Positions 708 to 5,009 of a stretch of DNA of 27,027 nucleotides are shown here, piece by piece; position 1 is the stretch's first letter; each line of letters opens with the position of its first letter. A program made the translations under genes and the position numbers. Under the pieces are notes generated by a model, which did no database searches, was not told where the DNA came from, and saw only the letters and a program-made list of their open reading frames with translations. The DNA is from a virus. The DNA lies in IMG/VR virus record IMGVR_UViG_3300017782_000166, positions 1 through 27,027 of that record. The stretch is one strand, 5' to 3'.

Positions 708-1961
708 TTAATATCCTGCTACTGGGTCTAAGATTTCAAATTCATCGTATTCATAATCATAATGGTAAGCAACTTTTGCAAGTTGATCAATATACGCAAG
801 CGCATCGACTAAGTCATCGTGAACTAATTGATTAGGAAATTGAAACAACTGATCTAAGAACTGTGCATTCCAATCTCCTTTATTAAGCTCAATTTGTCCA
901 TGTTCAAATCTTCCTTGAAGTCCCCATACAATTCTATCCGTCTTCTTTTTATTACCGTGAGTTAGTTCTTCGACTCTAAAAAACCTCTGCCCCGATTTCA
1001 TTAGATCGGTCAGGTAAGGCAGTACCGCATTCTTTAATGCTCCTTTTTCTATACCAACCGCTACTGGTTGATAGTAATGAACAGCATCGAATATTTTTTT
1101 GGCGGTCTTTTTGATATCCCATCGTCCATGTACAATATCCGAAACCCACCATCCGTCTGTACTCACTTTAACAATTGCAATTGCAGTTTCATCTAACTTT
1201 TTATTTTTAGATTTGGTGGCTGACTCAACATTTGCAAAACCCGCGAGGTCAACCGCAATATAATAATCACCATCATCAGGTTCATCTTCATTAAACTGTA
1301 CCCAATCTTCTTTGAATATTTCTGACCCCATTGCTTCAAACGATGCCATAAACTCCTGTCGAAAGGCGTAGGTAGACATACTTCGTTTAGCTGTATCAAT
1401 TTCTGTTGGATCAAGAAGCGGGTTGTCGTAAGATGTAAAATGCCACGCTTTATATCCTTCGTCATCTCCGAGTTCGGCATAAGTAAAGAGTTCATAAAAA
1501 TGATTCCTTCCCATTGGCGTACCAATAAATAATGCTTCACCCTTCTGGTCAGCAAGCGCAGGTCTCAAAATTTGTTCCCACACTGACGGCTTCATATCAG
1601 CATACTCGTCCATAACGAGAAACTTTAATGATACACCACGCATTGTTTCTGGCCGGTCTGCACCTTTTAAGGAAATAACACAACCATTGATCAACGTAAT
1701 TTGTAAATTATTAATGTGAGAACTTTTAATTACTGGGTGCGCGAGTTCCAACAATGTAGACCACATAATATCTCGCGCCTGTCCTTGTGTCGGTGCAACA
1801 TAAAACACATGCCCACGTTCTGTTTGTAGTCCATTAATAATTAATAACCATGCCGCAAGGCGAGACTTACCAGTACGCCGACCTGCCGCAACTATTTTAA
1901 ATCGTGTCGGGTCTCCAAAAACATCTTGTTGCCACGGTAGTAGCTCAACATTCAATTCCAT
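708..1961 (-). CDS. Terminase large subunit (packaging ATPase/nuclease)
   Basis: This 417-residue protein is the DNA-packaging motor. The N-terminal ATPase has an adenine-binding-type WQ pair (residues 10-11), a Walker A AGRRTGKS (26-33), a Walker B LVMDE (115-119) and a coupling GTP motif (147-149). The C-terminal RNase H-like nuclease shows YIAVDLAG with Asp238 and a late acidic motif HDDLVDALAY (381-390). Length and motif spacing fit the Terminase_6 type. It starts at a TGATG overlap with the upstream LysM gene and ends one base before the portal start, so it is translated as part of a coupled late operon read leftward from the promoter near 3900. Confidence 0.93.
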   Translation of the reverse strand: MELNVELLPWQQDVFGDPTRFKIVAAGRRTGKSRLAAWLLIINGLQTERGHVFYVAPTQGQARDIMWSTLLELAHPVIKSSHINNLQITLINGCVISLKGADRPETMRGVSLKFLVMDEYADMKPSVWEQILRPALADQKGEALFIGTPMGRNHFYELFTYAELGDDEGYKAWHFTSYDNPLLDPTEIDTAKRSMSTYAFRQEFMASFEAMGSEIFKEDWVQFNEDEPDDGDYYIAVDLAGFANVESATKSKNKKLDETAIAIVKVSTDGWWVSDIVHGRWDIKKTAKKIFDAVHYYQPVAVGIEKGALKNAVLPYLTDLMKSGQRFFRVEELTHGNKKKTDRIVWGLQGRFEHGQIELNKGDWNAQFLDQLFQFPNQLVHDDLVDALAYIDQLAKVAYHYDYEYDEFEILDPVAGY

Positions 1962-2980
1962 CAGGCGTTAATAGATGTGAAGAAGTTAGATACTTTATCG
2001 ACAATTTTTCTGCCTAGTTTTCCTGCACGTAGCTCTAACAAAGATGAAAAACTTTCTGGAGGAATATCTTGCTTGCCGGTTACACGCCTGAAGTCAAATT
2101 TATTTTCATTAACATTGTAAGAAGACAGTTCAACTTTATCTCCAGTATTCCCGCCAATAAAAAATACTTCGTTATCTTTTACATCTGCAACAACTCCAAC
2201 GTGGGCAACGCCAAGAGTTTTATCTTTTTTCCTTGCGTCTGCGCTATGATACTTAACCATAATGTCACCTGCTTTTACATTTTCAAGAGCAACACTTTCT
2301 CCTGCATTTGCATAAGCGGCGGCGCGGGTTTGAGCATAAGGGTCTTTAGTTTTTAAAAGCTTCATGGTATCAACACCAGAGTCTCGTAAAACTTGAGCAA
2401 GAAATGTAGCGCACCACGGAGTATCTCGTGCAAACTCTTCAGGAGTTTTTTCTTCGCCAAATCTTGACAATCCAATATTATCAAAAAATCCTCGAACAGC
2501 TTGAGCGCCTTCAGGCGTATCTTCTTTTATTCCTAAATATTTAACAGCCATGTCAGCAGGATTCTTAGCTGTTGAAATATCTGCGATTGCTTCTACTGAG
2601 GGAGGCTCTCCTCCTTTTATTTGGACATCTTCTGGAATTTCGGATGCTTCACCGTAAGCTCTAGGTATAAAAAAGTTTACAAGGCCCTGTCCTATTTCCA
2701 TTATAGGATTCATAGGAGACGGTGCAGTAGGTTCAGGTTGTTCAAGCGGTTCAATTGCTTGATCTAAAGTTTGAGCATTTTTAGGAATTGGTTTGTCGAA
2801 CTCTGACTCTAAAGACACCACAGTATCTTGTGGGGTATCTGGTAATAAAATATTTTGACCGCTACGTATTAAGTTAGGATTAGTAATTTCAGGATTAAGC
2901 GCTAGAATCTGATCAAGACTTGCCCCGCTTGTCTGAGCAATTTGACCTAACGTATCTCCTGCTTTAACTTTATACGCCAT
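1961..2980 (-). CDS. LysM plus CHAP/NlpC-like peptidoglycan hydrolase
   Basis: A 339-residue two-domain protein. Residues 2-47 are a LysM peptidoglycan-binding motif (YKVKAGDTLGQIAQ... ending GQNILLP). A proline-rich linker (about 50-130) follows. The C-terminal domain (about 140-305) resembles the TIGR02594/CHAP cysteine hydrolases: TPWCATFLAQVL with Cys190 as likely nucleophile, AHVGVV with His260, and GGNTGDKV with Asn278. No signal peptide is visible, so export would need a holin, or the protein may be virion-borne. It overlaps the upstream lysozyme by 11 bases and couples to the large terminase through TGATG. Its likely role is cell-wall cleavage during lysis or entry; which one cannot be told from sequence. 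Confidence 0.8.
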   Translation of the reverse strand: MAYKVKAGDTLGQIAQTSGASLDQILALNPEITNPNLIRSGQNILLPDTPQDTVVSLESEFDKPIPKNAQTLDQAIEPLEQPEPTAPSPMNPIMEIGQGLVNFFIPRAYGEASEIPEDVQIKGGEPPSVEAIADISTAKNPADMAVKYLGIKEDTPEGAQAVRGFFDNIGLSRFGEEKTPEEFARDTPWCATFLAQVLRDSGVDTMKLLKTKDPYAQTRAAAYANAGESVALENVKAGDIMVKYHSADARKKDKTLGVAHVGVVADVKDNEVFFIGGNTGDKVELSSYNVNENKFDFRRVTGKQDIPPESFSSLLELRAGKLGRKIVDKVSNFFTSINA

Positions 2981-3431
2981 TACGCATCATCTCCACTAAT
3001 TCTTCTGAGCGTCTGCCGACCTGACGATACCATTTTGAATCTACCATTTCGTCAGCGGCTTTTTCATAGTTACCTTCGTTGACAGCCTTCAACATATTTT
3101 TAAATTTGCTAAGACGATTTCGGCCAAGATTAAATGCCATGTTGACAAGAACTCTTTGCGCTGTTGGTGTTTGTCCTGCAAAGTTTAACACAAGGTTGCA
3201 AGCATCAGAGTATGCAACGTTGCAATCTTTATGAAACACATCTAGGATTCGTTCATCAGTTACCGGAGTTCCTACAGGCCATGAGTGTTCCATGTCGTCT
3301 TCCGTAACCATGTGACCGATACCAAAGGTTGGATAATTTTCTGAACATAAATATATTTCAGTGACGTAACCTTCATGGCGAATTAAGTCTTCTTTTACAA
3401 CTTCAATTAATTCATCTCTCGTCATCATCAA
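2970..3431 (-). CDS. GH24 (T4-type) lysozyme, E-C-T catalytic triad
   Basis: A 153-residue muramidase. The GH24 triad spacing Glu-8aa-(Asp/Cys)-5aa-Thr is exact: Glu20 in RHEG, Cys29 in IYLCSE and Thr35 in PTFGIGH. Cys replaces the Asp20 of T4 lysozyme. Cys variants are known in other phage endolysins such as P1 Lyz, so this is a natural alternative, not a defect. The second half carries the family's helical segment (NMAFNLGRNRLSKFKNML) and the SKWYRQVGRRSEE region. No N-terminal signal-anchor is evident. Three consecutive Met codons open the frame. The GAGG at about 3441 suits the first ATG. The gene overlaps the AT-hook gene by 20 bases. Confidence 0.9.
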   Translation of the reverse strand: MMMTRDELIEVVKEDLIRHEGYVTEIYLCSENYPTFGIGHMVTEDDMEHSWPVGTPVTDERILDVFHKDCNVAYSDACNLVLNFAGQTPTAQRVLVNMAFNLGRNRLSKFKNMLKAVNEGNYEKAADEMVDSKWYRQVGRRSEELVEMMRNGV

Positions 3432-3804
3432 TTACCTCGCCTTCAATAATGTTTGGTTCTGGGGTGATTACCGTTTCGCCGCCCACACCTGTAATGGTAA
3501 TTGAGACAGCAGAGCGTCCTGCATTATTTTTATCTTTTTCAAAATAACTAATCGGCAACATCCTGTCCATCAACAACTTCCATGCCGCCGCTTGATTCTT
3601 GTGTTCGTCATTTAACGCGGCGCTCATAATACTGTCAAGTACTTTTTGAGATCGAGGACTTGCGAGAAGCCTTGCCTTGAACTCGTTGATCGCCGCCGCG
3701 TCCCCTGCGGGTCTGCCACGTTTTACACGGTTGCCCGTTTTCTTAGACTCAACAAGTGACTTGCGAGGTCTGCCTCTTTTTTTCGTAGGAGTATTCTCAG
3801 TCAT
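3412..3804 (-). CDS. AT-hook DNA-binding protein, probable terminase small subunit
   Basis: A 130-residue basic-to-acidic protein at the head of the leftward late operon. The N-terminus holds two AT-hook-like GRP motifs, KKRGRPRK (8-15) and KRGRPAG (28-34), which bind the AT minor groove. The middle (about 40-85) is helical with KNQAAAWKLLMDRMLPI, a segment resembling small-terminase/DNA maturase A proteins. The C-terminus is acidic (EGEVIDDDER). Its position directly before lysis genes and the large terminase supports a DNA-recognition role in packaging. The two AT-hooks and the nearby AT-rich control region make a second, regulatory DNA-binding role possible. Confidence 0.65.
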   Translation of the reverse strand: MTENTPTKKRGRPRKSLVESKKTGNRVKRGRPAGDAAAINEFKARLLASPRSQKVLDSIMSAALNDEHKNQAAAWKLLMDRMLPISYFEKDKNNAGRSAVSITITGVGGETVITPEPNIIEGEVIDDDER

Positions 3805-3894: not shown

Positions 3895-3923
3895 ATTGTA
3901 TCATACTTTTGAGCTTTTGTCAA
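3895..3923 (-). promoter_or_regulatory. Consensus sigma70 promoter for the leftward late operon
   Basis: On the minus strand TTGACA (3923-3918) is followed by a 17-base spacer and TACAAT (3900-3895), with TGA just before the -10 (extended -10). Five of six -10 bases and all -35 bases match the sigma70 consensus. It reads into the AT-hook/lysozyme/terminase genes beginning at 3804. Confidence 0.85.
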
Positions 3924-4138
3924 GTTCTTTTTAATAACCAGTACAGACCCTTTCCTTTTCTCAGCGGGTTTCAGGCAGTAACTCTCCGCAGTGCGCGATT
4001 GATTTTTATTAATAATATCAATATACTTATCAGTGCATACGCAAATGCAAACCATTCTTATTAATATTCTAATTTCACTCTTTTTTGTATCTGGGTAGGT
4101 ACTATATATCGAGTCACTGTTGTGCGCCCTCCCCCGCC
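3924..4138. other. AT-rich non-coding tract, candidate DNA-unwinding region
   Basis: This stretch between the leftward promoter and the DnaA boxes has no convincing gene. It is AT-rich, especially about 4000-4035 (runs of TTATTAATAATAT type) and 4053-4110 (TTATTAATATTCTAATTTC, then T-runs and ACTATATATCG). An AT-rich tract flanking a DnaA-box cluster is what is expected of a duplex-unwinding element. A 66-codon minus-strand frame crosses it but has no Shine-Dalgarno sequence. Confidence 0.45.
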
Positions 4139-4242
4139 TGTGGATAACTCTGGGGATAACTATTTAATTTCTGTGGATAACTGCGCTGACTTGTGGATAA
4201 AACAGCGCTGTCTGTGGAAAACTCGGGAGAGAATGTGGATAA
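4139..4242 (+). other. DnaA-box array (putative replication origin or DnaA-titration site)
   Basis: Six same-strand copies of TGTGGATAA, the complement of the E. coli DnaA box TTATCCACA, begin at 4139, 4151, 4172, 4192, 4213 and 4234. Copies at 4139, 4172, 4192 and 4234 are exact. The copy at 4151 reads TGGGGATAA and the one at 4213 reads TGTGGAAAA, each one mismatch. Start-to-start spacings are 12, 21, 20, 21 and 21 bases, close to two helical turns, so the boxes face the same side of the helix. The array sits in the divergent intergenic region beside an AT-rich tract, as in bacterial and plasmid origins. A host-DnaA-dependent origin is the leading reading. Titration of host DnaA is the alternative. 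Confidence 0.8.
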
Positions 4243-4355
4243 GTAGTACCCATATGGTGCATAAGTCTGTTAATAACCCACCTGCCACGTTTCATGCCAG
4301 GAATAGCGACTAGCTAAACTATATTCGTATGGCGAGCCAGATGATTTTAGTATTG

Positions 4356-4371
4356 GTTAACTATGGTTAAC
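4356..4371. repeat. GTTAAC pair, site 1 (10-bp repeat step)
   Basis: GTTAACTATGGTTAAC: two HpaI-type palindromes with 10 bp between their starts. The pair ends two bases before the -35 box of the first early promoter, a position suited to an activator or UP-like function. Confidence 0.75.
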
Positions 4372-4373
4372 TG

Positions 4374-4401
4374 TTGCATTCCGCTTTCAGTTTGCTATTA
4401 T
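4374..4401 (+). promoter_or_regulatory. Early rightward promoter (TTGCAT-N16-TATTAT, extended -10)
   Basis: TTGCAT (4374-4379), a 16-base spacer and TATTAT (4396-4401) preceded by TGC, giving an extended -10. The start codon of the first rightward gene lies 57 bases downstream with a GGAGG ribosome binding site. A GTTAAC pair abuts the -35 box. Confidence 0.6.
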
Positions 4402-4457
4402 ATGCATATGGTCAATGGTGATCATAAATAAAGTAAATTAATAGACTGGAGGTAGTC

Positions 4458-5009
4458 ATGTCTAGCAAAAACGAAGCGATTCAATTCGACAATAGAGGTG
4501 CGTCTTATGCGGCATACCTAAACACTGATGTGGAATTAGTCATTGGTTCAACCGATGGTAAGCAGGTTTCCAACATGGTTGATATGGTTAACCACGTTAA
4601 CCTCGATACCGATTTAATCAAGGGATATTGCGAGGACTTCGCTAGCGCACTAATCGCGCAAGGTAGCGACAAAGGGTCGGTAAAGGCCTTGAAATCGGCG
4701 CGTAAATGCATTCTCGATTTCGCTTTAGGGGTTCGCACCAAGCAGGTACGGAATGCGGAGTTATGGTCGAACGGCGAAGGAAAGGCAATGATCGTTGATT
4801 TCTTCAATGACGCTGGGTCGATCAATCAACTAGCGGGTAAGTGCCGCGATGCTGAGGATGATAACGATGAAGCGAAGGTAGAAAAACCTTGGGATCTCGG
4901 TTTGGAACTTCAGAAGTTCATAGACAAGGCTGAAGGCGAGGGTCACTCAATCGCTGACATAGCGAAGGCGCTGAAGGAGCTAACACCGAAACCCGCGAAG
5001 GCGGCATAA
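4458..5009 (+). CDS. First early gene, hypothetical 183-aa protein
   Basis: This is the first rightward gene after the putative origin and has its own promoter, a strong GGAGG ribosome binding site seven bases upstream and a terminator just after it, so it is likely a monocistronic, abundantly expressed early product. The protein is mostly helical. It has an N-terminal QFDNRGASYAAYL segment, a central helical region (residues about 55-115, SVKALKSARKCILDFALGV) and a charged AEDDNDEAKVEK linker, then a C-terminal helix pair (IADIAKALKEL) with a KPAKAA tail. I recognise no family. A GTTAAC pair lies inside its coding sequence (4587-4601). A host-takeover, DNA-binding or origin-associated role is possible from position only. 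Confidence 0.8.
   Translation: MSSKNEAIQFDNRGASYAAYLNTDVELVIGSTDGKQVSNMVDMVNHVNLDTDLIKGYCEDFASALIAQGSDKGSVKALKSARKCILDFALGVRTKQVRNAELWSNGEGKAMIVDFFNDAGSINQLAGKCRDAEDDNDEAKVEKPWDLGLELQKFIDKAEGEGHSIADIAKALKELTPKPAKAA
4587..4601. repeat. GTTAAC pair, site 2 (9-bp step, inside a gene)
   Basis: GTTAACCACGTTAAC within the first early gene, encoding VNHVNL. The two hexamers are 9 bp apart. Confidence 0.6.

Follow-up and report, generated by a model that had tools for sequence, protein, structure and literature searches.

A phased array of DnaA-type boxes in a predicted, exchangeable terminal repeat of an environmental podovirus

Introduction

Why does a phage that encodes its own primase-helicase and polymerase carry an ordered series of DnaA-type boxes between its terminase genes and its early genes? 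The question is raised by a 27,027-bp IMG/VR virus fragment (here called the window, i.e., the whole stretch of DNA that was analysed), derived from a virus of bacteria known from environmental DNA only. A sequence-only reading had proposed a hybrid replication system started by host DnaA, or alternatively a decoy for this protein. Our comparisons make it rather probable that host DnaA docks at this array, that the array belongs to the direct terminal repeat (TR) of a linear podovirus, and that it is one version of an exchanged cassette.

Results

The DnaA-type array

The sequence scan supports the segment 4139-4242 as a phased array of DnaA-type boxes. Six boxes are found on the plus strand only, starting at 4139 (TGTGGATAA), 4151 (TGGGGATAA), 4172, 4192, 4213 (TGTGGAAAA) and 4234, with spacings of 12, 21, 20, 21 and 21 bp; four of the six, including those at 4172, 4192 and 4234, are exact TGTGGATAA-type boxes. 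About 7.9 boxes with at most one mismatch are expected by chance in the whole window, both strands included. The Poisson probability of finding six of them on one strand within 104 bp is ~2e-14, and the biggest cluster in shuffled strands (n = 120) contained two boxes. This is the clustering of several TTATNCACA-type boxes beyond chance by which a DnaA-box array is recognized. The scan and the shuffles thus bear out the number, strand and spacing of the boxes as first noticed. The helical phasing is likewise borne out and extends beyond the window: 27 neighbour distances, taken after collapsing the arrays by relatedness, group at 11-12, 19-23 and 32 bp (Rayleigh p ~ 5e-9). An AT-rich tract had been described beside the boxes. 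The tract is real (approximately 3990-4115), but it does not adjoin them directly, as a C-tract (4129-4136) intervenes.

Clusters of at least five DnaA boxes were also seen in about 40 of 119 viral contigs (L002-L120, paired-box pattern), mostly outside the phage group of the window, and some of them have mixed orientation. Arthrobacter phage Seahorse (L455) has three exact DnaA boxes at 890-933, 23 and 12 bp apart, located after the last annotated gene and near the right end. In Microvirus mar31 (L457), a series of eleven near-consensus DnaA-type boxes with an exact spacing of 11 bp, and one additional box, is found at 417-575 in the noncoding gap between the capsid and pilot protein genes; similar matches occur in other microviruses.

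Genome organization around the array

The features surrounding the array are listed in Table 1. Rightward of it lie the early genes, a T7-like primase-helicase, a family A polymerase, a 5'-3' exonuclease-like protein, a RusA-like resolvase and both ribonucleotide reductase subunits. The structural arm, from ~17 kb, is on the strand opposite to the early arm. The description of this virus as a T7-like phage agrees with its primase-helicase and polymerase, but no RNA polymerase gene was seen in the 27-kb fragment and the gene arrangement is LUZ24-like, not T7-like. In LUZ24, the order is terL, lysozyme, terS, noncoding DNA and an annotated 184-bp repeat, which is preceded by GTATCTGGGG. The small AT-hook protein at the terS position of the window had no match to a terS family, and its predicted fold (mean pLDDT of 58) was too poor for a structure search.

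Table 1. Features of the window around the array of DnaA-type boxes (TR, terminal repeat).
Feature	Position	Strand	Remark
Terminase large subunit (terL)	708-1961	-	
LysM/endolysin-like protein	1961-2980	leftward	
T4-type lysozyme/endolysin	2970-3431	-	
Small AT-hook protein, terS position	3412-3804	-	terS by position only, from LUZ24 synteny
Strong sigma70 promoter, TTGACA-N17-TACAAT	3895-3923	-	drives terminase/structural arm; kept in relatives
Left element L, TTTTTTGTATCTGGGTAGGTA	4081-4101	+	kept in more than 120 related loci
12-mer TCTGGGTAGGTA in L	4090-4101	+	corresponds to the motif at the TR start of T7, T3, K11 and gh-1
Predicted direct TR	4102-4251		~150 bp, right edge +/-10 bp; interior is the inferred exchangeable slot
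C-tract, CTCCCCCG	4129-4136	+	as in T7-type TRs
Array of six DnaA-type 9-mers	4139-4242	+	phased by multiples of ~10.7 bp
Right element R, GTAGTACCCA	4243-4252	+	predicted right TR edge
Weak candidate early promoter	4374-4402	+	rightward; weak basis
First early gene, 183 aa, no assigned function	4458-5009	+	homologues in L121, L122, L135, L150 and others

Two further elements lie close by. A Fur-like ATGCAAACCATTCTTATT stretch is present at 4041-4064, left of the terminal repeat, and similar AAATGCAAATCATTCTCATT sequences are frequent there in relatives. A direct, operator-like repeat, GGTTAACTATGGTTAAC, is located at 4357-4376, just upstream of the candidate early promoter and the early gene. 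Relatives carry other palindromes at this place (TTAATCATGATTAA, TTAAGCATACTTAA), and the variability of the palindromes before the early gene suggests a second variable operator.

A predicted terminal repeat

The left side of the segment has the anatomy of a T7-type repeat boundary, TCTGRRTRNNNA followed by a C-tract. As in T7-type repeats, the C-tract (from 4129) follows the boundary motif within ~20-32 nt, and the segment lies between the terminase genes and the early genes. Each of the genomes of T7, T3, K11 and gh-1 has a single match to TCTGARTRNNNA followed by a C-tract, and this match lies where the TR begins, although the pattern was composed post hoc, after viewing those four sequences. 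In T7, T3 and K11, the end of the motif coincides with the annotated start of the repeat; in gh-1, the two are no more than one base apart. A left-element profile built from the window's phage group only was less selective: it ranked the TR boundary 26th of 79,754 positions in T7 and 11th of 76,296 in T3, but only 336th in gh-1 and 657th in K11, and first in none.

In the relatives, the conserved left element reads TTTTTTGTRTCTGAGTAGGTA followed by the C-tract, and the right element resembles GTGTGAGTGTCTGAGTAGTACCC. The sixth box of the window overlaps the usual right-element sequence, GTGTGAGTGTCTGAG. Contig ends give a second indication of the right edge. The two ends of a related contig of 37,662 bp (G002) overlap exactly over 2,141 bp, which gives a unit of 35,521 bp. 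This contig stops within the right element, that of L254 at the same base, and those of several other relatives close by. No contig starting exactly at the left edge was found among the relatives, and the window contig, a fragment, has no end repeats. Based on this anatomy, the array is predicted to lie in the direct terminal repeat of a linear podovirus genome.

Exchange of the slot contents

Is the array a fixed part of this repeat? Close relatives of the primase are encoded in 43 viral contigs. Conserved box spacing, suggested as a check in related phages, is found in two of them, L122 and L123, which have seven boxes with spacings of 12, 21, 20, 21, 21 and 22 bp; the other primase relatives have no array, so that it is not a trait kept throughout the family. 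Wherever the region was available in those other relatives, the flanking DNA is similar and the interior is different. The clearest case is the pair L121 and L122, in which the primase DNA is 97.4% identical and the left element 98%, against 41% for the slot: L121 has sigma54-like sites in the slot, L122 DnaA boxes. Similarly, L131 and L161 are 98.1% identical upstream and their slots differ. The slot class differs in 13 of 34 pairs with at least 92% upstream identity, the classes being coarse and some of the differences possibly threshold effects.

The scans with the left element covered at least 120 related loci, and 121 slots entered a census. At least two sites were present for DnaA in 11 slots, for sigma54-type sites (TGGCAC-N5-TTGC) in 27 and for Fur-like sites in 20, compared with none in shuffled slots and 0-3 in the flanks. 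These and the other slot classes are consensus matches. Some slots are mixed and have a single sigma54-type site in addition to DnaA boxes (L081, L169 and L182), and many slots hold repeats for which no protein was matched. The boxes of a DnaA array mostly face one way within a slot, yet both directions occur among slots. The sigma54-type sites face the early genes in 50 of 52 cases, with only two in the opposite direction. Judged from these alignments, the interior between the conserved edges is an exchangeable slot, swapped among near-identical phages. That the segment is a DnaA-type array and that it occupies such a slot in a TR are, taken together, highly probable.

Some slots carry other types of sites. 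Two tandem LexA-type sites (CTGT-N8-ACAG) are found in the L322 slot, the sole such slot of the 121. The slots of L261 and L273 contain TTGGCA-N7-TGCCAA inverted repeats, and an AT-rich palindrome near ATAAAGATATCTTTAT, which we presume might be a SahR-type operator, is present in those of L279, L294, L298, L306 and L326. A search for hosts with the slot frame in genome contigs was abandoned: its 51 matches came from unrelated taxa and look like chance. No cultured close relative was found by DNA or by the terS-position protein, and the best primase match (53%) was Pelagibacter phage HTVC115P.

This exchange bears directly on the proposed DnaA-dependent origin, joined to a T7-like replisome. 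Two features would suit an origin: the boxes have AT-rich DNA in their vicinity, and the cumulative GC skew reaches its minimum at their position (~4.0-4.2 kb). The skew minimum is indeed at the array, but the change of sign coincides exactly with the change in gene direction; it is not independent evidence, gives no support for an origin and was discarded. Near-identical replication genes occur both with and without boxes, which disfavours the hybrid system: the array is not kept among relatives whose replication machinery is the same (L121 versus L122, and the other primase relatives). In addition, the array of Berlinvirus sits in a terminal repeat. As DnaA is interchangeable here with other host DNA-binding proteins, it probably does not act as an origin initiator, and we regard this role as very unlikely.

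The same interchangeability speaks against a packaging (cos/pac) region, where host proteins bound to the DNA would help the terminase, in the manner of IHF at lambda cos. The slot adjoins the gene at the terS position, and the right element is the stopping point of several related contigs; both would suit such a region. However, one would not expect DnaA, Fur and sigma54-polymerase to replace one another in this task, as each has its own way of bending or wrapping DNA; a role in packaging is improbable.

Arrays in cultured T7-like phages

A query of a phage collection with the DnaA array returned, among other matches, Berlinvirus A7, P483, nasanit and vB_SEqdws-315, and the SP6-like Kp7 and PmP19. 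In nasanit, A7 and P483, AAAAATCTGAGTGGGTA runs into TCTCATAGTT...CCCCC, and the phased boxes follow directly. The record of Shigella phage A7 begins and ends with the same 177-bp sequence, which starts at TCTCATAGTT and contains eight boxes. BA14, whose annotated repeat measures 194 bp, shares this left edge and the terminal TCTCTGTGTCCCT with P151, P694 and PZJ0206; the interior is devoid of boxes in all four. In BLAST comparisons of the nasanit region with the phage collection, the edges match in many Berlinviruses and the middle does not. Classical T7-like phages, too, thus show the box arrangement and its exchange: A7, P483 and nasanit share their edges with BA14 and its kin and differ from them inside.

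Berlinvirus A7, P483, nasanit, vB_SEqdws-315, phiEap-1 and the SP6-like Kp7 and PmP19 thus resemble the window in carrying phased arrays in or beside the TR, and other Berlinviruses resemble its relatives in having different interiors between the same edges. Unlike the window, the array-bearing cultured phages are classical Studiervirinae/Molineuxvirinae; the arrays are unannotated in the record stretches examined. The premise that T7-like phages have no connection with DnaA boxes needs revision in view of these cultured T7- and SP6-like phages. No report linking Berlinvirus to DnaA was found in the open-access literature, where absence does not prove novelty.

Discussion

What could DnaA do at this place? 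As a docking site in the TR, the array would be present at the two genome ends and at each junction of the concatemers, and host DnaA would bind it cooperatively on one helix face. The bound protein may then form a barrier or anchor that affects genome entry, end stability or the processing of junctions. The property common to the alternative slots would be the occupation of the TR by a host DNA-binding protein. The slots show no excess of sigma70 promoters, which favours such a barrier or anchor. The orientation of the sigma54-type sites argues against it, as it suits promoters better than a passive barrier. We put this role forward tentatively, as the likeliest of those considered, plausible without being probable.

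The orientation of these sites leaves room for a regulatory role. DnaA, sigma54-RNA polymerase, Fur and other proteins bound to the TR would control the early genes and time the infection to the physiology of the host. Every protein identified reports on the state of the host, and there is a precedent in CtrA, whose sites cluster in direct terminal repeats (DTRs) with measured binding and transcription effects (PMC9437464). Against such a sensor stand the sigma70 promoters, which do not overlap the slots, with the sigma54-type slots as a possible exception to this absence of promoters. The DnaA arrays occurring in either orientation and the distance of at least ~130 bp between the window's array and the candidate early promoter also speak against it. 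A host-state sensor therefore appears rather unlikely.

A third possibility is a DnaA sponge. The array would then act like a portable datA, drawing off DnaA so that the host no longer initiates, and the other slots would titrate other regulators. Multiple high-affinity boxes, presumably doubled by the TR and amplified by replication, would suit this function. However, a sponge needs no fixed place between the TR edges, nor does it explain why sites for other host proteins take the place of the boxes. It would have only six sites per copy, and its effect would come late. We consider it quite improbable. In E. coli, datA and oriC are clusters of DnaA boxes to which the array bears a likeness; unlike it, they are chromosomal and accompanied by IHF and unwinding elements, the window array being known from its sequence.

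The closest parallel to a docking site for host proteins in the TR is found in alphaproteobacterial phages (phiCbK-like and others), where CtrA sites are clustered in DTRs or gap regions (Mascolo et al. 2022, PMC9437464). For the CtrA sites, with their measured binding and transcription effects in phiCbK-like DTRs, 'lytic deferment', a timing of infection to host physiology, was proposed; DnaA sites showed no asymmetry in that study (PMC9437464). The window group resembles those phages in the concentration of host-regulator sites in a DTR (here a predicted one), their fast turnover between relatives and several independent origins. The CtrA phages have one regulator, long gene-bearing DTRs and experimental proof, whereas the window group has a predicted gene-free repeat of ~150 bp and arrays for several proteins, described at the sequence level. 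As sigma70 promoters are not enriched inside the slots, the location of sites at regulated promoters, typical of CtrA, was not found. CtrA was the only host regulator with sites in phage TRs that we found in the open-access literature.

The repeats of T7, T3, K11, gh-1 and BA14 (160-231 bp) resemble the one predicted in the window in their boundary motif, TCTGRRTRNNNA, their C-tract and their position between the terminase end and the early genes. The interiors of the T7 and T3 repeats differ from it in containing CCTAAAG-type repeats, which are not known host-protein sites. LUZ24 and tf (Bruynoghevirus type) share with the window a convergent two-arm genome, with terL-lysozyme-terS at the right end in LUZ24, and their TRs of about 185 bp are comparable to the predicted one; unlike the window, the LUZ24 repeat has no DnaA boxes. 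Phage tf has the same convergent organization as LUZ24, and its genome ends were defined by experiment (PMC3517423). In phage T5, DnaA boxes have been reported within the injection stop signal, which halts the first-step DNA transfer (PMC13250531), although T5 is a very different phage and the role of its boxes is only putative.

These likenesses might reflect a general, gene-free TR cassette of T7-like and related podoviruses that has repeatedly been refitted with arrays for abundant host proteins: DnaA, sigma54-polymerase, Fur, and probably LexA and others. We give this generalization slightly less than an even chance. In the open-access literature, we found no description of a TR cassette with exchangeable host-protein arrays. 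If it exists, it would allow a virus to dress its genome ends and junctions with whichever host protein suits. The finding places the DnaA boxes of several T7-like phages in the terminal repeat, and it reveals a rapid exchange of host-protein sites at the genome ends of near-identical phages. Experiments on the role of the TR interior thereby come within reach in cultured E. coli K-12 phages.
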